From the NCBI RefSeq assembly GCF_016862975.1, contig NZ_BONZ01000035.1, positions 1 through 64,000 of the forward strand: a stretch of DNA of 64,000 nt, read 5' to 3'. The DNA comes from Rugosimonospora africana (GTDB lineage: Bacteria; Actinomycetota; Actinomycetes; Mycobacteriales; Micromonosporaceae). How positions within the stretch are numbered: the first letter of the stretch is position 1; each line of letters starts with the position of its first letter. A model generated the notes under the pieces. It had not been told where the DNA came from. It saw nothing but the letters and a program-made list of their open reading frames with translations, and ran no database searches. The position numbers and the translations under genes were made by a program. Of this stretch, positions 4,978 to 63,524 are shown piece after piece.

Positions 4978-6005
4978 TCGATGTGGCGTCGCCGGCGGCA
5001 GCGTCGGCCAAGCGCGCCGGCTGGTGGCGCGGCGACGGCAGCGAGCCGGTACGGCGCAACCTCGGCCTGGTCGGGGTGCTCGTCCTGCTGTACCTCGTCG
5101 GCGCCCTGGCCCGGCCGGATATCTTCCTGCACGGCGGCCGGCTGTGGTCCAACGAGCTGACCGTGCTGACCCAGGCGTCGTCGATCGGCGTCATCACGAT
5201 CGGCATGACATTCGTGATGATCAGCGGCGGCATCGACCTGTCGGTCGGAGCCCTGCTCGCGCTGGCCAGCGTCTGGTCGACCACGGTCGCGACACAGAGC
5301 TACGGCCCCGGAGTCATGATCCTGGCCGCTCTGCTGGTCGGTGCCGGATCCGGTCTGGTCAACGGGATCCTCATCGCGTACGGGCGGATGGTGCCGTTCA
5401 TCGCGACGCTGGCCACGATGGTCGCGGCGCGGGGACTGGCGCAGAAGATCTCCGGGAAGCTGACCCAGATCGTGAAGGTGACCTCGTTCAACCGGATCGC
5501 CGAGTGGCGGCCGTTGGGCATCCCGTTGCTGGTCATCATTTTCGTGGTGGTCGCGGTACTGGCCTGGGTGCTGCTCAACCGGACCACGTTCGGTCGCCGT
5601 ACCGTGGCGATCGGCGGCAACGCCGAGGCGGCCCGGCTGGCCGGCATCAACATCCGCCGGCACACCCTGCTGGTCTACACGCTGTCCGGGCTGTGTTGCG
5701 GGATCGCGGCGGTGATGGTCACCGCACAGGCGACCGCGGGCTCGTCCGACCACGGCAACCTGTACGAGTTGAACGCGATCGCCGCCGCGATCATCGGCGG
5801 CACGGCGCTGACGGGTGGGCGGGGCACCATCGTCGGGTCGGTGCTCGGCGTGCTCGTGTTCACCCAGATCTACAACCTGTTCATCGTGAAGAACCTGCAG
5901 ACCGAGTACCAGCAGATCGCGCAGGGCGTCATCATCGTCGCCGCGGTCCTCATCCAGCAGTTCCGGGTCGCCGCGCTGCGGCGGCCGGTGCCACCCGGCG
6001 CCTGA
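4974..6005 (+). CDS. sugar ABC transporter permease (RbsC class)
   Basis: A 343-residue polytopic membrane protein of the BPD_transp_2 (RbsC/XylH) family. The conserved segment VMISGGIDLSVGALLAL is present, as is the cytoplasmic coupling region SFNRIAEWRPLGIP. There are about ten hydrophobic segments. It starts with a GTG that overlaps the preceding stop (GTGA), so translation is coupled to the ATPase gene. It works with the ATPase before it and the lipoprotein after it to import a sugar whose identity cannot be fixed from sequence; the downstream beta-galactosidase makes a galactose- or arabinose-type substrate plausible. Confidence 0.92.
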   Translation: MIDVASPAAASAKRAGWWRGDGSEPVRRNLGLVGVLVLLYLVGALARPDIFLHGGRLWSNELTVLTQASSIGVITIGMTFVMISGGIDLSVGALLALASVWSTTVATQSYGPGVMILAALLVGAGSGLVNGILIAYGRMVPFIATLATMVAARGLAQKISGKLTQIVKVTSFNRIAEWRPLGIPLLVIIFVVVAVLAWVLLNRTTFGRRTVAIGGNAEAARLAGINIRRHTLLVYTLSGLCCGIAAVMVTAQATAGSSDHGNLYELNAIAAAIIGGTALTGGRGTIVGSVLGVLVFTQIYNLFIVKNLQTEYQQIAQGVIIVAAVLIQQFRVAALRRPVPPGA

Positions 6006-16713: not shown

Positions 16714-17202
16714 ATGGCTGAGCGGGACGGAGCGGTCGCGACGTTCGCACCCACGCGCCGGCAGATCGCCGTACTCCAGCTGGTCTGCGTTCCGCTGGTC
16801 GCCGGGCTCGTCGCGGCGGTCTTCGTCGTGCTGAAGCTGACTGCGGGCGGGCCCGGGGATGCCGCACTCCCGCTGGTGGTGGTGCTGGTACTCGGCTTGC
16901 TGCTGCTGGTGTCCGCACAGTGGTGGACCGCTCGCACTGCGGTGGAACGGACCGGAATCCGGCTCAACGACCGGCCGTGGGTCACCGGCTCCGCGAATTT
17001 CGTGCGCTGGGACCGGGTCGCCGACGTTACGGTGGTACGGCGGCGCCGGCACACGAGCGTCGTGCTCCGCCTCGGTACCGGCGACCTCCGGACGTTGCCG
17101 GCGCCCTACGACGGGCGGGGACTGACCCGCGACCCCGGCTTCGCCGCGAAGGCGGACCTGATCCGCGAGGCGTGGCAGGCCGGCCGGGGCGCGGTGGAGT
17201 AG
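16714..17202 (+). CDS. small membrane protein with PH-like domain
   Basis: A 162-residue protein with two transmembrane helices (about residues 18-40 and 50-70) followed by a cytosolic PH-like beta domain (GIRLNDRPWVTGSANFVRWDR, then VVLRLGTGDLRTLPAP). The ATG has GGGAGG seven bases upstream. Proteins of this pattern are common and uncharacterised in actinobacteria. The upstream frame that joins it to the preceding gene is a chance reading. It is followed directly by the family 2 tandem repeat. Confidence 0.75.
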   Translation: MAERDGAVATFAPTRRQIAVLQLVCVPLVAGLVAAVFVVLKLTAGGPGDAALPLVVVLVLGLLLLVSAQWWTARTAVERTGIRLNDRPWVTGSANFVRWDRVADVTVVRRRRHTSVVLRLGTGDLRTLPAPYDGRGLTRDPGFAAKADLIREAWQAGRGAVE

Positions 17203-17220
17203 TCAGTTTCTACTGTTTAT

Positions 17221-17344
17221 CACTCGGTGTTGCGTGGGAGTGTGCTCGCCTCCGCCACAACCCGGCTCCGGCTGCGCTCACTCGGTGTTGCGTGGGAGTG
17301 TGCTCGCCTCCGCCACAGATCGGCTCCGGCTGCGCTCACTCGGT
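17221..17344. repeat. family 2 repeat, tandem pair, locus 1
   Basis: Two 58-bp units (17221-17278 and 17279-17336) and the first 8 bases of a third (CACTCGGT). Each unit holds TGTGCTCGCCTCCGCCACA and CGGCTCCGGCTGCGCT. The bases AGTG before GTGCTC and CACT after GCGCT pair to close a hairpin of about 45 bases. It fills the gap between two convergent genes, and its right end supplies the stop codon of the antiporter gene on the minus strand. A second tandem pair lies at 62380. Confidence 0.85.
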
Positions 17345-18877
17345 AAGGCTGGTCTCCTCCAAGTCGAGACGGCGTTGCAACCGCCGCCGGGTCTCCGCGC
17401 CGACCGTGCCTTCCTCGTACAGCCGGGTCAGCACCGCCGACTCGACGGCGATCAGATCGCGGCGCAACTGCCGCATCGCCGGCCGCAGCGAGTCGTCGGA
17501 CCTTCCCTCCAGCGAGTCCAACCGGGACCGCTGGATCTGGCGCAGCTGCGCGATCATGACTTGCGGAGCCGCCTCCTGGTCCTCGACCTCATCGAGGTAG
17601 GTCAGTGCGGCGCGGGACATGGCGGTGCGCGCGGTGGCCGTCTCGTTGCGGGCATGGTCTTCCGGCAGGGCGACGCCGGAGCGGCGGACCAGCGGGCCGA
17701 GAGTGAACCCCTGCACGACCAGCGTGGTGACGATGACCGCGGTGGTCAGCAGCAGGACATGGTCGCGACCGGCCAGCGGGGCGCCGTGCCGCGCGGTCAG
17801 CGGGATCGACAGGGCGGCGGCCAGGGGCAGTACGCCGCGCGCACCGGCCCAGGAGACGACGGCCGGCACCCGCCAGGACGGCCGGCCGCCGCGCCGGCTC
17901 TGCGCCGCCAGCGACAGCGGGAACACCCACAGCGCGCGGACGGCGAGCAGGGTCACGGTGATCGCCAGCGCCTGGACCAGCCACGTCCCGGTGCGACCGC
18001 CGGCGGCCCGGACCAGACCGGGAAGCTCGAGCCCGATGAGGCTGAACACCACACTCTCCAGCAGGAACACCACGGTGTCGTACACCGCGTGCAGCTGCAA
18101 CCGGATCCGCGCGCTGGTCAGGCGGGTGGCCTGGCCGGCCAGGATGACGCTGGTCACCACGACGGCGGTCACGCCGGACACGTGCACGGCCTCGGCGATG
18201 ACATACCCGGCGTACGGGGTGACCAACGCGATGACGGTTTCCAGCACCGGATCCTCGGTACGGCGGCGGATCAGCGCGACGCCGCCGGCCACCGCGGCGC
18301 CGATCAGCACCCCGCCGCCGGCCAGGAGAGCGAACTGACCGACGCCCCGATACCAGGAAACGGCACCGCCGGCCACCGCGGCGGTGACTGCCACCCGGAC
18401 CAGCACCAGGCTGGTCGCGTCGTTGAACAGGCTCTCCGCCTGGATGAGCGCTTGCAGCCGGCCGGGCAGCGACAGCCGGCGGCCCAGCGCGGTCACCGCC
18501 ACCGGGTCGGTGCTGGCCAGCACCGCCCCCAGCACGAACGCCATGGACGCCGGCAGGCCCGCGACGGCCGACGCCACCACGCCCACCGCGGCGGCCGACG
18601 CGATCACCAGCCCGATCACCAGCACGGTGACCGGGCGCCACACCGGGCGCAGTTCGCGCCAGGACAGGTCCTGCCCGGCCGCGTACAGCAGCGGCGGCAG
18701 CACGACCAGGCCCACCAGTCCGGGGGACAGCTGGATGGCCGGTACGCCGGGAACGAAGGCGACCACCAGGCCGGCGACCACCAGCAGGGACGGCGCCGGT
18801 ACCCGGAGCCGTCGGGCGGACGCCGCGACCGCCGTGGCCAGCACGACCAGCAGCAGGATGATCTCGACTCCGCGCAC
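17336..18877 (-). CDS. Na+/H+ antiporter, CPA1 type
   Basis: A 513-residue monovalent cation/proton antiporter. It has about 12 transmembrane helices with the CPA1 hallmarks ASTDPVAVTALG and QAESLFNDATSLV (ND pair for ion binding). A cytosolic tail of about 120 residues follows, rich in Arg and Glu. It would exchange cytosolic Na+ (or K+) for H+ in pH and salt homeostasis. The GTG start opens straight into the first helix. Its last codon and stop fall in the family 2 repeat, so the natural C-terminus may have been set by the arrival of that repeat. Confidence 0.9.
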   Translation of the reverse strand: MRGVEIILLLVVLATAVAASARRLRVPAPSLLVVAGLVVAFVPGVPAIQLSPGLVGLVVLPPLLYAAGQDLSWRELRPVWRPVTVLVIGLVIASAAAVGVVASAVAGLPASMAFVLGAVLASTDPVAVTALGRRLSLPGRLQALIQAESLFNDATSLVLVRVAVTAAVAGGAVSWYRGVGQFALLAGGGVLIGAAVAGGVALIRRRTEDPVLETVIALVTPYAGYVIAEAVHVSGVTAVVVTSVILAGQATRLTSARIRLQLHAVYDTVVFLLESVVFSLIGLELPGLVRAAGGRTGTWLVQALAITVTLLAVRALWVFPLSLAAQSRRGGRPSWRVPAVVSWAGARGVLPLAAALSIPLTARHGAPLAGRDHVLLLTTAVIVTTLVVQGFTLGPLVRRSGVALPEDHARNETATARTAMSRAALTYLDEVEDQEAAPQVMIAQLRQIQRSRLDSLEGRSDDSLRPAMRQLRRDLIAVESAVLTRLYEEGTVGAETRRRLQRRLDLEETSLTE

Positions 18878-58000: not shown

Positions 58001-60070
58001 ATGCTCTTATCCAGGCCCCGGACCGGCGGAGTGGCGGTGGTGGCCGGGCTGGTCGTGCTCGGCACGGCCACCGGCGCTCTCGCCGCTCCGAACGGAGCTG
58101 CCGACTCGCGGCAGCAGGCGTACGCGGCCGCAGCCGCATCCTCCGGCGTACCGGAGAGCGTGCTGCTCGGTGTGTCCTATCTGGAGTCCCTGTGGAACAC
58201 GAACGCGGGGCAGCCGAGCACGAGTGGCGGGTTCGGCCCGATGCACCTGACCGACGTGACCTATGTGGCCTCGCTGCCGGCGACTGGTCTGGGTCGCGGC
58301 GCGGCGTCAGACGCGCCGAGCCAGACTGGTCGTCCAAGGGCCGAGGTCGCCGGCACGGATCAGGCCAGCACGGTTCAGGCCGCCGGTGCGAATCAAGCGG
58401 GCGCTGACGCGCGTGGCGACAGCGCGAGGCCGATGACCGCCGGGCCGCGCCAGGCCGGCGCGACCACGACACCGGCCACGGGCACCGAGACGCTGGAGGT
58501 GGCGGCGGCGCTGACCGGGCTGGACAAGGCGACGCTGCGCACCGACCCGGCGGCCAACATCCGGGGCGGCGCGGCGGTGCTCGCCCGGTACCAGCGCGCG
58601 CTGGGCGCACCGCTGTCCAGCGACCCGGACCAGTGGTACGGCGCGGTGGCTGAGTACGCGGGCGCGACCGACGCGGACAGCGCGCAGCAGTTCGCCGACG
58701 AGGTGTTCGACACCATCCGGTCCGGCGCTCAGCGCGTCACCGACGACGGGCACCCGGTGCGACTGGCGGCGACGGCCGGTGTGCCGGACCGGTCCTGGCT
58801 GGACAAGCTGGGCCTGCCCCGGCTGCCCGGATCCAGCAATCTGGAGTGCCCGAAGAAGCTGTCGTGCGAGTGGGTACCGGCGCCGTACCAGCAGCTGTCC
58901 GCGGACCCCACCGACTACGGCAACTACGACCTGGCCGACCGGCCGAAGACTCAGAAGATCCGGTACATCGTCATCCACGACACCGAGGAGAGCTTCGACG
59001 GGTCGCTGCAACTGGTGCAGGACCCGACGTACCTCGGATGGCACTACACGATCCGGTCCGCCGACGGGCTGGTCGCCCAGCACATCGCGACCAAGAACGT
59101 CGGGTGGCACGCGGGCAACTGGTACGTCAACTCGGCGTCGGTCGGCGTCGAGCACGAGGGCTACGCGGCGCAGGGCAGCTGGTACACCGAGGCGATGTAC
59201 CGCGCGTCCGCGAAGCTGGTGCGGTACCTGGCCGACAAGCTGGACATCCCGCTGGACCGGCAGCACATCATCGGCCACGACAACGTGCCGGGCATCACGC
59301 CCGCCAACGTTGCCAGCATGCACTGGGATCCGGGACCGTACTGGGACTGGGCGCACTACTTCGACCTGCTGGGCGCGCCGCTGCACGGCACCGGCAACGT
59401 CCACAGTGGACTCGTCACCATCGACCCGGACTACGCCCGCAACACGCCGGCGTTCACCGGGTGCGACGGGACGGCGGCCGACGCGTGCGCGCCGCACGGC
59501 TCCTCGTCGGTGATCCTGCACACCGCGCCGTCGGCGGACTCGCCGCTGGTCACCGACATCGGGCTGCACCCGGACGGCTCACCGTCCACGATGTACATCT
59601 CCGACCACGGCGCCCGGGCGTCCGCCGGTCAGGTGTACGCGTCGGCCGGCACGCAGGGCAACTGGACCGCGATCTGGTACCTCGGCCAGAAGGCGTGGTT
59701 CTACAACCCGCCGTCGGCACGCACCGCGCGGTGGTCGACCGGGCTGGTCGCGGTGCCGAAGCCGGGCCAGGCCAGCATCCCGGTGTACGGCCGGGCCTAC
59801 CCGGAAGCGGCCGCCTACCCGGCCGGCGTACCGGTGCAGACGATCGTCCCGATGCAGTACACGTTCGCGGCGGGGCAGCGGTACGCGGTCGGTGGCATCG
59901 TGCCCAGCGAGTACTACAAGTCCTCGACGTTCGACGGGTCGAGCCCTGGTGACCACACCGTCATCAGGGGCAGCATGAAGTACGTCCAGATCCAGTTTGG
60001 ACACCGGATCATGTACGTCGACCTGAATGACGTCAACCTCGTCCCGGCCGATTGGGGGTCGCCTGCCTGA
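58001..60070 (+). CDS. exported peptidoglycan amidase with lysozyme-like N-terminal domain
   Basis: A 689-residue exported wall hydrolase. After a signal peptide (to about residue 33) comes a lytic-transglycosylase-like domain with SVLLGVSYLESLWN (glutamate near 60) and GGFGPMHLTDVTY, continued near 170-220 by AALTGLDKATLRTDPAANIRGGAAVLA. The amidase_2 domain spans about 310-450, with IRYIVIHDTEESFDG, HAGNWYVNSASVGVEHEG and IIGHDNVPGITPANVASM. The C-terminal 230 residues look like SH3-type wall-binding repeats. Repeat copy G (residues 94-111) and an Ala/Gly/Thr-rich stretch split the first domain. ATG 58001 follows GGAGG. It may cut both glycan and peptide bonds. Confidence 0.88.
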   Translation: MLLSRPRTGGVAVVAGLVVLGTATGALAAPNGAADSRQQAYAAAAASSGVPESVLLGVSYLESLWNTNAGQPSTSGGFGPMHLTDVTYVASLPATGLGRGAASDAPSQTGRPRAEVAGTDQASTVQAAGANQAGADARGDSARPMTAGPRQAGATTTPATGTETLEVAAALTGLDKATLRTDPAANIRGGAAVLARYQRALGAPLSSDPDQWYGAVAEYAGATDADSAQQFADEVFDTIRSGAQRVTDDGHPVRLAATAGVPDRSWLDKLGLPRLPGSSNLECPKKLSCEWVPAPYQQLSADPTDYGNYDLADRPKTQKIRYIVIHDTEESFDGSLQLVQDPTYLGWHYTIRSADGLVAQHIATKNVGWHAGNWYVNSASVGVEHEGYAAQGSWYTEAMYRASAKLVRYLADKLDIPLDRQHIIGHDNVPGITPANVASMHWDPGPYWDWAHYFDLLGAPLHGTGNVHSGLVTIDPDYARNTPAFTGCDGTAADACAPHGSSSVILHTAPSADSPLVTDIGLHPDGSPSTMYISDHGARASAGQVYASAGTQGNWTAIWYLGQKAWFYNPPSARTARWSTGLVAVPKPGQASIPVYGRAYPEAAAYPAGVPVQTIVPMQYTFAAGQRYAVGGIVPSEYYKSSTFDGSSPGDHTVIRGSMKYVQIQFGHRIMYVDLNDVNLVPADWGSPA
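58282..58331 (+). repeat. family 1 palindromic repeat, copy G (in frame inside the amidase gene)
   Basis: A full-length 50-bp copy with GACTGGTC at both ends. It is translated in a frame different from copy E, giving TGLGRGAASDAPSQTGR. It falls in the middle of the lysozyme-like domain, at a place where a surface loop would tolerate extra residues. Confidence 0.9.
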
Positions 60071-60191: not shown

Positions 60192-61259
60192 GTGGCACCA
60201 CCCGTACCCGAGCCGGATCCGGCGCAGTCGCAGCCATACCTGGCGGTACGGGACCTGACCGTGCGGTTCGACACCGAGGACGGCGTGGTGCGTGCGGTCA
60301 ACGGAGTGTCGTTCTCGGTGCGGCCCGGGCGCACGCTGTGTGTCGTGGGTGAGTCCGGCTCCGGGAAGAGCGTTGCCAGCCTCGCCATCCTCGGCCTGCA
60401 CAACCCCCGGCGTACGCGGCTGTCCGGACAGATCCTGGTCGGCGGCCGGGATGTCGTCGGGCTCGACGAGAAGCAGATCCGGACGATGCGCGGCCGGAGC
60501 ATGGCCATGATCTTCCAGGATCCGCTCTCCGCCCTGCACCCGTACTACACGGTCGGCCGCCAGATCGTGGAGGCGTACCGCGTGCACCACCCCTCGGCGG
60601 GCAAGGCGGAGGCGCGCAGGCACGCCGTCGCGATGCTCGGCAGGGTCGGCATCCCCCAGCCGGACCGGCGGTTCGACCGGTACCCGCACGAGTTCTCCGG
60701 CGGCATGCGGCAGCGCGTGATGATCGCCATGGCTCTGGTCAACCATCCCGACCTGCTGATCGCCGACGAGCCGACCACCGCCCTGGACGTGACGGTCCAG
60801 GCCCAGATCCTCGATCTGCTGGCCGACCTGCAGTCGGAGTTCAACACCGCGATCGTGCTGATCACGCACGACCTCGGCGTGGTCAGCCAGGTCGCCCACG
60901 ACGTCCTGGTGATGTACGGCGGGCGCGCGGTCGAGCAGGGAACCGTCGAGCAGGTTCTGCGCCGCCCGCAGCACCCGTACACCTGGGGCCTGCTGGCCAG
61001 CGTCCCGACGCTGCGCGGCGACCCGGACGCCGACCTCACCCCGATCAGCGGCAGCCCGCCCAGCATGATCAACCTGCCGGCGGGTTGCGCCTTCCACCCC
61101 CGGTGCCGGTACGCCGGCGAGACCGAGGGGCGGAGCACCACCGAGATCCCGCTCCTGCGCCCGGCCGGTGAGCCGGACCATCTCGTCGCGTGTCACCTCA
61201 GCGACGCCGACCGTGCCCGGCTGCGCGAGCACGAAGTCACGCCGACGGAGGTGGCATGA
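60192..61259 (+). CDS. oligopeptide ABC ATPase (OppD class)
   Basis: A 355-residue ATPase. Walker A is GESGSGKSV, signature [15 protein letters not shown], Walker [14 protein letters not shown]. The C-terminal oligo_HPY block has the cysteine cluster [12 protein letters not shown]...ACHL typical of OppD/DppD. The GTG start follows GAGGAG by five bases. It is the first gene of the second peptide transporter; its ATGA junction with the next gene shows coupling. In this locus, wall-derived stem peptides are a likely cargo. Confidence 0.92.
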
Positions 61260-62374
61260 CCAGCCAAGAGCGGCCGCTGGACGGCTCTGCCGGCGCCCTT
61301 GGGGGCGATGCCGGGGCCAACGCGATCGCCGACGCCACCGCCGAGGCCGATGGTGGCGGGACGACCGTCCGCCAGCGGGAGCCGGAGCGCACCGGCGAAC
61401 CGCTCCTTGCCGTCGAGGGGCTGACCCGGCACTTCCCGGTACGCGACGGCCTCGGGCCGCGCTCCGTCGTGCGGGCGGTGGACGGCATCGACTTCGAGGT
61501 CCGGCCGGGCGAGACGCTCGGACTGGTCGGGGAGTCGGGCTGCGGCAAGACCACCACCGGCCGGATGATCGTGCGCCTGCTGGCGCCGACGGCCGGGCGC
61601 ATCCGGTTCGACGGCCGGGACATCACGCACATGCGCGGGCGGGCACTGCGGCCGCTGCGCCGGGAGCTGCAGATCATCTTTCAGGACCCGTACTCGTCGC
61701 TGAACCCGCGGCACACCATCGGCAAGATCATCGCCATTCCGTTGCAGGTCAACGGCGTGCGTCCGGAGGGCGGGATCAAGCGGCGGGTACAGGAGCTGCT
61801 GGAGATCGTCGGACTCAACCCGGAGCACTACAACCGGTACCCGCACGAGTTCTCCGGAGGGCAGCGCCAGCGGGTCGGCATCGCCCGCGCGCTGGCGCTG
61901 CGGCCCCGGCTCATCGTCGCCGACGAGCCGGTCTCTGCCCTGGACGTGTCGATCCAGGCCCAGGTCGTCAACCTCCTCCGCGAGCTGCAGCGGGAGCTGG
62001 ACCTGGCGTTCCTGTTCATCGCGCACGATCTGGCCGTGGTGCGGCACTTCAGCCACCGGGTCGCGGTGATGTACCTCGGCAAGATCGTGGAGGTCGGGGA
62101 GCGGGACGACATCTACCGCAACCCGCGGCACCCGTACACCCGGGCGCTGTTGTCCGCTGTCCCGGACGTCGACGCGCCCGGGGGCGCCTCCGGACGGATC
62201 CGGCTGGCCGGCGATCCGGCGTCGCCGGCGAACCCGCCGTCCGGCTGCCGGTTTCGCACCCGGTGCTGGAAGGCGCAGGACATCTGCGCGACCGAGGAAC
62301 CCGCGCTGATCCGGCGCGAGGGTTCGGCACAGCTGACCGCGTGCCACTTCCCGGAAACGGAGCCGCCGCGATGA
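61256..62374 (+). CDS. oligopeptide ABC ATPase (OppF class)
   Basis: A 372-residue ATPase with an Ala/Gly/Asp-rich N-terminal extension of about 45 residues. Walker A is GESGCGKTT, the block [18 protein letters not shown] is typical of OppF, and the signature is [15 protein letters not shown]. The C-terminal block ([15 protein letters not shown]...ACHF) has the family cysteines. It pairs with OppD in the transporter. The family 2 tandem repeat begins six bases after its stop. Confidence 0.92.
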
Positions 62375-62379
62375 CCTGG

Positions 62380-62490
62380 GACTGTGCTCGCCTCCGCCAC
62401 AGACCGGCTCCGGCTGCGCTCAGTCGGGTGAGTTGTGACTGTGCTCGCCTCCGCCACAGACCGGCTCCGGCTGCGCTCAGTCGGGTGAGG
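62380..62490. repeat. family 2 repeat, tandem pair, locus 2
   Basis: Two units of 57 bp spacing (62380 and 62437), each with TGTGCTCGCCTCCGCCACA and CGGCTCCGGCTGCGCT. Here the closing arms read ACTG and CAGT, where locus 1 has AGTG and CACT. The pair lies inside an operon, between the OppF and OppC genes, and ends 26 bases before the latter's start. Confidence 0.85.
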
Positions 62491-62516
62491 ACGTACCAGA
62501 CCGGGAGGTGGTCGCG

Positions 62517-63524
62517 GTGAGCCTGTCGCCGGCCGACGACATCGCGCTGTCCGAGATCGGACCCGCCGGGCCGCAGTCGCAGGCGGCCGGGGAGCAGCTG
62601 GTCGGGCGGTCGCCGGGCCAGCTCGCCTGGGCCCGGCTGCGCCGGGACCGCACCGCCATGATCAGCGGAGCGGTGCTCGCGCTGCTGTTCATCGTCGCGC
62701 TGGCCGCCCCGCTGATCGAGCGGCTGTACGGCGTCGGGCCGCAGCAGCAGTTCCAGAACGCCCTCGACTCGTACGGCATGCCGCTGGGCTACTCCGGCGG
62801 GGTCACCGGCGGACACTGGTTCGGCCTGGAGCCGGGGCTGGGCCGGGACATCTTCATCCGGATGGTCTACGGGCTGCGCACCTCGCTGTTCGTCGCGCTG
62901 ACGGCGGCCGTCATCACCACACTGATCGGGGTGGCCGCCGGCGTGGTGGCCGGGTACCTCGGCGGCTGGGTCGACGCGGTCATCACCTGGGTCACCGACT
63001 TCGCGCTCGCGATGCCGTTCCTGATCGTCGCGCTGGCGTTCGTGCCGACGGTGGCCCTGCGCTTCTACGGCCAGCGGGAGGCGGAGCCGGCGTTGTTCCG
63101 GGTCGCGGTGATCATCGTGGTCTTCGCCCTCTTCGGCTGGACCAGCGCCGCCCGCCTGGTACGCGGCCAGATCGTCTCGTTGCGCGAGCGCGAGTTCGTC
63201 GAGGCGGCTCAGGCCAGCGGCGTCGGCCTGGCGCACATGCTGATTCGCCAGCTCCTGCCGAACATCTGGGCGCCGATCCTGGTCTCGTTCTCGCTGGCGG
63301 TCCCGTCGTACGTGACGAACGAGGCCGTGCTGTCCTTCCTCGGCGTCGGTGTCGTCGACCCGACCCCGGACTTCGGCGCGATGATCTTCCGGAGCATCAG
63401 CTACCTCCCGACCGACCCGACCTACGTGTTCTTTCCCGGCGTGACGATCTTCGTGCTCGTTCTCGCCTTCAACCTGTTCGGTGACTCGTTGCGCGACGCG
63501 CTCGACCCGAAGTCCTCCCGCTGA
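62517..63524 (+). CDS. oligopeptide ABC permease (OppC class)
   Basis: A 335-residue permease with six helices. Diagnostic blocks are GGHWFGLEPGLGRDIFIRMVYGLRTSLFV, the EAA loop EAAQASGVGLAHMLIRQLLPNIWAP, and FLGVGVVDPTPDFGAMI. GTG 62517 is chosen because GGGAGG lies eight bases before it; an in-frame GTG at 62508 overlaps that site. It is a distant paralogue of the DppC-type protein at 25003. Confidence 0.9.
   Translation: MSLSPADDIALSEIGPAGPQSQAAGEQLVGRSPGQLAWARLRRDRTAMISGAVLALLFIVALAAPLIERLYGVGPQQQFQNALDSYGMPLGYSGGVTGGHWFGLEPGLGRDIFIRMVYGLRTSLFVALTAAVITTLIGVAAGVVAGYLGGWVDAVITWVTDFALAMPFLIVALAFVPTVALRFYGQREAEPALFRVAVIIVVFALFGWTSAARLVRGQIVSLREREFVEAAQASGVGLAHMLIRQLLPNIWAPILVSFSLAVPSYVTNEAVLSFLGVGVVDPTPDFGAMIFRSISYLPTDPTYVFFPGVTIFVLVLAFNLFGDSLRDALDPKSSR

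Follow-up and report, generated by a model that had tools for sequence, protein, structure and literature searches.

A dispersed tandem hairpin repeat in Rugosimonospora africana whose covarying arms may mainly record target matching at gene ends

Introduction

When the same hairpin occurs at two places in a genome and one base pair of its stem differs on both sides, does this difference reflect selection on a folded RNA or single-stranded DNA? The question is raised by two tandem hairpins in a stretch of 64,000 nucleotides of Rugosimonospora africana (contig NZ_BONZ01000035.1, positions 1 to 64,000; hereafter, the window). An earlier sequence-only reading proposed that the two loci differ by one compensatory change, that both units of each tandem pair carry the same version, that such a change is a sign of selection on RNA or single-stranded DNA structure, and that both loci start at a stop codon. 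No description of the repeat was found in the open-access PMC literature. Here, we examine these proposals using the copies of the hairpin in the whole genome and in related genomes.

Results

The two loci in the window

The features of the two loci are as follows; gene names are our readings of the encoded proteins.

17220–17344: locus 1 doublet, period 58 nt
17296–17341, minus strand: locus 1 hairpin unit, first in sense order; 5′ arm GAGTG at 17341–17337, 3′ arm CACTC at 17300–17296
17238–17283, minus strand: locus 1 hairpin unit, second in sense order; arms GAGTG/CACTC
17220–17237, minus strand: linker, then a third GAGTGA copy (17225–17220), the right end of the array
17336–17338, minus strand: TGA stop of the antiporter-like gene, within the stem foot
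17336–18877, minus strand: Na+/H+ antiporter-like gene
62380–62489: locus 2 doublet, period 57 nt
62437–62482, minus strand: locus 2 hairpin unit, first in sense order; arms GACTG/CAGTC
62380–62425, minus strand: locus 2 hairpin unit, second in sense order; arms GACTG/CAGTC
61190–62374, plus strand: ABC-transporter ATPase gene, ending 5 nt ahead of locus 2
62508–63524, plus strand: ABC-transporter permease gene, starting beyond locus 2

On the plus strand, the arms of locus 1 are GAGTG (17238–17242) and CACTC (17279–17283), and again 17296–17300 and 17337–17341; those of locus 2 are GACTG (62380–62384) and CAGTC (62421–62425), and again 62437–62441 and 62478–62482. A single pair differs on both sides between GAGTG/CACTC (17220–17344) and GACTG/CAGTC (62380–62489), and the two units of each doublet have the same arm version, as had been proposed. 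The statement that both loci start at a stop codon calls for correction: the plus-strand genes end at 17202 (locus 1) and at 62374 (five bases before the locus 2 stem). The informative strand is the opposite one, and the relevant stop at locus 1 is the TGA at 17338–17336 of a minus-strand gene, located in the stem foot, where the 5′ arm of the first unit (17341–17337) overlaps the last codon and the stop. A match to the antiporter-like protein was found in 27 of 41 genomes (G000 included), and most of these relatives terminate 1–10 residues beyond the same motif, so this stop looks native. Locus 2 sits within a run of ABC-transporter genes and is antisense to them.

The folding energies of the single sequences were unremarkable relative to those of shuffled sequences (z from −0.3 to −1.7), so the case for the hairpin rests on comparison. 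The whole window had no match in Rfam at the gathering score, and no terminator-like site or T-run was detected at locus 1 (0 sites in 17150–17450). A second dispersed palindromic repeat, of ~61 nt, has six copies in the window (at 5997, 9420, 37586, 43676, 46977, and 58272), which are 72–89% identical to a reference copy. One of them folds at −35 kcal/mol (RNA, plus strand), and the copy at 58272 falls inside an open frame.

Copies of the repeat in the genome

The genome comprises 11.1 Mb in 219 contigs, is about 97% complete, and is the single genome of its genus in our comparison. When the whole genome was searched with a 36-nt pattern, allowing up to three mismatches, ~145 copies of a hairpin unit of 57–58 nt were detected, and the reversed pattern, used as a control, gave no copies genome-wide. 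The 115 units that we gathered, of the about 145, fall into 69 clusters (38 doublets, 27 singles, and 4 triplets), with a spacing of mostly 57–58 nt. In the sense orientation, the unit reads GNNTGA - GCGCAGCC GGA GCC(loop)GGC GGA GGC GA GC A - CANNC, and CANNC is followed by a linker of ~12 nt and then often by a second GNNTGA; a linker like CACGCAGCANC is common to many loci. The core is nearly invariant, and the outer arms vary between loci yet match each other. At L008, L010, L062, L070, and L082, contigs stop inside or near arrays, so the copy numbers in the assembly are lower bounds. Loci L030 and L086 agree in an odd spacing of 61 nt, in additional bases where the second unit opens, and in their GCC arms, and are probably sister copies of one mobile doublet.

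Covariation and folding of the stem

One unit per locus was aligned for 68 of the 69 clusters (64 distinct sequences), with L070 omitted because of its position at a contig end. In this alignment, 98.2% of the stem cells were paired, compared with 91.0% after shuffling, and sliding the partner reduced the value to 24–44%. Both sides had changed in 52 stem cells, a number equalled in none of 500 shuffles. All four Watson–Crick types occur at the pair beside the outermost one (CG 28, AU 22, UA 7, GC 5, other 2); the pair that had originally drawn attention is CG in 53 units, GC in 8, and other in 3, and the four inner stem pairs are invariant. Among the 64 distinct first units, pairing at the two NN positions was lacking in no more than 2 and 3 units. 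With the copies collected, the stem positions are therefore seen to change jointly across the 68 loci, and the pairing of the arms, first read from two loci, is real. The mRNA-like strand, which reads the stop codon, had the stronger fold in 106 of 114 units. Wobble pairs outnumbered A·C mismatches by 13 to 5 in first units and by 36 to 10 in all units, but this excess is weak because six of the 13 fall at one position and the copies are related.

Arms and the ends of genes

The sense 5′ arm is GNNTG, followed by A, and in 42 of the 68 loci it coincides exactly with the final codon of a coding frame and its TGA stop. The remaining 26 loci comprise 22 that are intergenic and four that overlap coding frames; for 10 of the 22 intergenic loci, the distance to the end of a sense gene is between −2 and +11 nt. 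All these gene ends were assigned by codon usage and are approximate. Altogether, 64 of the 68 loci are intergenic or at gene ends. Mostly, the element lies where a gene read in the same direction stops, either at its 3′ end or no more than 11 nt away. As a rule, one arm of the stem consists of that gene's final codon and TGA, and the opposite arm is complementary to it. The outer stem can thus vary and still pair, because one of its arms is usually the end of the neighboring gene, stop codon included.

The last codons in the first units were GCC (30), GAC (22), GTC (7), CGG (4), GCG (3), GAG (1), and GGG (1). GGC, the commonest GNC codon at 144 TGA gene ends taken as background (17 of 40), occurred in none of the 68 first units (Fisher p = 1.6e-8 against this background for the 59 GNC units, not all of which are at stops). 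The absence of GGC would be compatible with arms drawn from a pool of pre-existing types, but not with targets being copied without restriction. That a GGC arm is missing because it misfolds was considered and rejected, since the minimum-energy fold was unchanged. GCGGAG, a rare variant of the core, occurs with GCC arms in nearly every case, and L082 is a rare case of a half-matched arm.

Changes in the arms among cores, arrays, and right ends

Identical 36-nt cores were shared by 75 pairs of loci, of which 16 had the same arms and 46 had different arms that were perfectly paired at both loci. The same 5′ arm was found at identical cores in 0.227 of pairs against 0.28 expected, and a value at least as large as that observed arose in 327 of 400 permutations; arm type is independent of core type. 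The idea that arm classes are strictly inherited guide lineages was rejected on this ground. Among 45 pairs of neighboring units within arrays, 27 had equal arms, 16 had one-sided differences, and two differed on both sides, both being decayed and unpaired; compensatory arm differences numbered 0 of 45. The different paired arms on identical cores, the absence of compensation within arrays, and the independence of arm and core indicate that the covariation arises mainly from the occupation of sites. Furthermore, insertions common to several species have uncompensated arms (CTCTG/CAGAC in G215; GACGG/CTGTC and GACTG/CTGTC in G314), which favors arms that are fixed when the site is occupied. The usual reading, i.e., slow compensatory mutation under selection on RNA, fits these observations less well.

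The right ends were compared in 66 of the 69 clusters, the others having too little flank. After the last unit, the target hexamer was repeated exactly in 24 of the 66 clusters and with one mismatch in 12, and no recognizable copy was found in 30. In the 36 loci with a recognizable right copy, the match extended upstream by a mean of 1.6 nt, compared with 0.68 nt between loci (0 of 5,000 permutations), and 18 of them had zero extension beyond the hexamer. By inspection, about ten loci have duplications of roughly 8–18 nt.

Empty sites and insertions in relatives

In Micromonospora rosaria (G231), the element lies directly after ...AACGTCTGA, the end of a cspA-like gene (our own reading) that terminates in GTCTGA, and ACGTCTGA recurs past the element, ahead of downstream sequence resembling that of siblings. 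Of 29 sibling loci, 27 were readable and two were unreadable by pattern. The element was present in none of the 27, of which 22 end in GTCTGA and five have another last codon or stop. Because element-free siblings share GTCTGA, the 5′ arm was in place at this locus before the element.

A different situation was found in a large enzyme-like gene of G209, where the element is an in-frame, antisense insertion of 57 bp. Its siblings lack exactly these 57 bp (494 vs. 551 bases) in most of 36/41 genomes with a match. In a tree of the flanks (four occupied and 19 empty rows), the occupied G209, G213, G218, and G314 are scattered among empty sites, and well-supported branches force at least three changes; these may reflect precise loss, insertion more than once, or exchange among genomes. 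GACGGA is absent from the empty site, so here the 5′ arm may have arrived with the element, and this speaks against a host origin of the 5′ arm at every locus. Two units in G314 are separated by a host-like direct repeat. The addition of 19 in-frame residues to the enzyme-like protein (L157, L159, L162, and L158 near 1505) was seen in three Micromonospora genomes and in one genome of another genus, with two units in G314. In G002, from a related genus, the doublet L164 has diverged and its foot is longer (TGCTGCGC/GCGCAGCA); the core GCCGGAGCCGGGTTGTGGC is retained.

Distribution and candidate enzymes

The exact pattern was found in three stretches among genome contigs: Micromonospora rosaria DSM 803, M. 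noduli GUI43, and a MAG. A covariance model matched 12 of 354 genomes of the family, Micromonosporaceae (E ≤ 1e-4). In a sample of 298 genomes from the order, it matched three, including one from outside the family (E = 8e-5). The repeat was not found on plasmids, phages, or viral contigs. Its expansion is particular to the present genome.

No mobilizing enzyme was found in this genome (about 97% complete). The sole match to PF01797 (Y1 transposase), L149, is an IS605-type tnpA beside a divergent tnpB, and no related hairpin was found in the 3.4 kb around this resident element. A RAYT or other Y1 transposase was rejected as the partner of the repeat because the genome has only this one IS605-type pair, which is not associated with the repeat.

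Discussion

The repeat is dispersed and tandem, and has precise empty sites in relatives. With modest confidence, we consider the best explanation to be that it is a small, non-autonomous, REP-like mobile hairpin with a variable arm that matches its target, following a logic like that of the IS608 guide. The hairpin, as single-stranded DNA or RNA, would insert 3′ of a GNNTGA site, with its variable arm, CANNC, pairing with this target. Either only copies with a matching arm would insert, as with the guide of IS608, or the arm would be written from the target during insertion. Insertion may leave another GNNTGA at the far end, which would allow further units of the same version to stack in tandem, and new sites would supply new arm pairs. 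The preference for stop codons would be attributable, at least partly, to the TGA in the target and to the protein being left unchanged. On this view, what the covariation chiefly preserves is the match made with the target upon insertion, rather than gradual repair by compensation. Several findings count against this explanation: no mobilizing enzyme was found in the genome, duplications clearly extend beyond the hexamer in only about ten loci, 30 of 66 clusters have no recognizable right copy, the 5′ arm may have come with the element at the G209 locus, and GGC is absent from the first units; in addition, the linkage between arm and core that a strict guide lineage predicts was not seen.

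The sequence-only reading took the paired change as a sign of selection on structure. The pairing of the arms stands, but the covariation alone does not signal stepwise compensation under selection: one arm is usually host sequence, this arm predates the element where that could be checked, identical cores have different and perfectly paired arms, and compensatory differences were not seen within arrays. We regard as unlikely a history in which selection for an mRNA hairpin at the stop codon, through a more stable 3′ end or an effect on terminating ribosomes, led to stepwise compensation. Near-perfect pairing with several pair types, units right at sense gene ends, the stronger fold of the mRNA-like strand, and the excess of wobble pairs speak for it, as do reports, in passages of PMC12306157, that REPs within 15 nt of stop codons affect translation. 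However, the inner pairs hardly vary and the outer pairs do, identical cores carry different arms, arrays show no compensation and tolerate 16 one-sided changes, and the cross-species insertions in G215 (CTCTG/CAGAC) and G314 (GACTG/CTGTC) are uncompensated. A role of the RNA at the stop codon is possible.

Correction of a quasi-palindrome, in which a non-matching insertion is followed by the conversion of one arm, by replication template switching, so that it complements the other, would yield perfect arms independent of the core and accounts for rare half-matched cases such as L082. Nevertheless, it would have to be nearly complete, given the few unpaired NN positions among the 64 units, even at sites with long, fresh-looking duplications, and it leaves the absence of GGC unexplained unless the host side was converted; we consider it improbable. 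That recombination simply spread ordinary tandem repeats or chance palindromes, without target matching, is very improbable: the tandem doublets with similar linkers speak for it, but the covariation relative to shuffles and slides, the empty sites, and the position at stop codons are contrary to it. Intrinsic transcription terminators are scarcely credible as an explanation. The hairpins do lie at gene ends, but terminators would not be expected to have an almost invariant 36-nt core, locus 2 lies within the ABC-transporter run, and neither a T-run nor a terminator-like site was found at locus 1; the terminator reading was rejected.

To return to the mobile hairpin, a more specific form of it is put forward here only tentatively. 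The repeat may be a naturally re-targeting miniature element, in which each insertion makes the 3′ arm complementary to its target (typically a gene's final codon together with the stop); the pairing of foot and target would select stop codons, and an unknown or host enzyme would act on the folded single-stranded DNA or RNA. If this is true, the site matched by a copy can be read from the copy itself. Covariation is normally taken to mark a selected RNA structure, and looks here like the product of an encounter between element and target. The about 70 sites collected from one genome, with several natural arms and targets, provide material for testing base-pair-guided insertion by a very small element. 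Dozens of genes have their stop codon within a hairpin stem, so that an influence on translation termination can be tested directly.

Several known systems can be compared with the repeat. Rickettsia palindromic elements (RPE) are palindromic units inserted in frame within protein genes, and the repeat resembles them in the in-frame palindromic unit of 19 residues at the G209 locus, the one such locus examined; to our knowledge, the RPE sequence is unrelated to this repeat. The MIRU elements of mycobacteria insert at DTGA, and we know of no covarying stem in them. In passages of PMC3733652, RPE are named as CGTC repeats. The repeat is like MIRU, as described in part of PMC12548453, in that its units are small, dispersed, and located at gene boundaries without disrupting the host gene, whereas the same text has MIRU insert at start codons and contain an ORF, and the repeat lies mostly at gene 3′ ends.

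The resemblance to REP/TnpA-REP (RAYT) systems lies in a short imperfect palindrome with a mismatched stem, present in > 100 copies, intergenic or near stops, and arranged in doublets. Unlike REPs, the repeat has a variable 5-nt arm and a foot that is mostly GNNTG, without a conserved GTAG or CGTC tag; its stem contains a stop codon, its doublets are head-to-tail, an arrangement described in part of PMC3733652 as absent or under-represented among GTAG repeats, and no cognate RAYT gene was found in the genome (about 97% complete). The repeat is, like REPs, a short, high-copy, mostly extragenic palindrome, and it differs from the REP family in the tag and in the RAYT gene, neither of which was found. 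In REPs, GTAG occupies the place where the guide would be (passages of PMC8266576).

Unlike IS200/IS605 elements, the repeat has no transposase gene, is about 58 nt long, and has one hairpin with ordinary 5-bp pairing at its foot. Judging from the sequences, it does not appear to be an IS200/IS605 derivative, its ends being unrelated to the surroundings (3.4 kb) of the resident element. According to passages of PMC5934647, IS608 recognizes its target by base pairing with a guide located beside the hairpin, 5′ of the palindrome, and inserts 3′ of the matched tetranucleotide, and an altered guide results in an altered target. Read on the strand opposite to the gene, the order TCANNC - linker - GNNTG - hairpin of the repeat is like that of the IS608 left end, CL - spacer - GL - palindrome.
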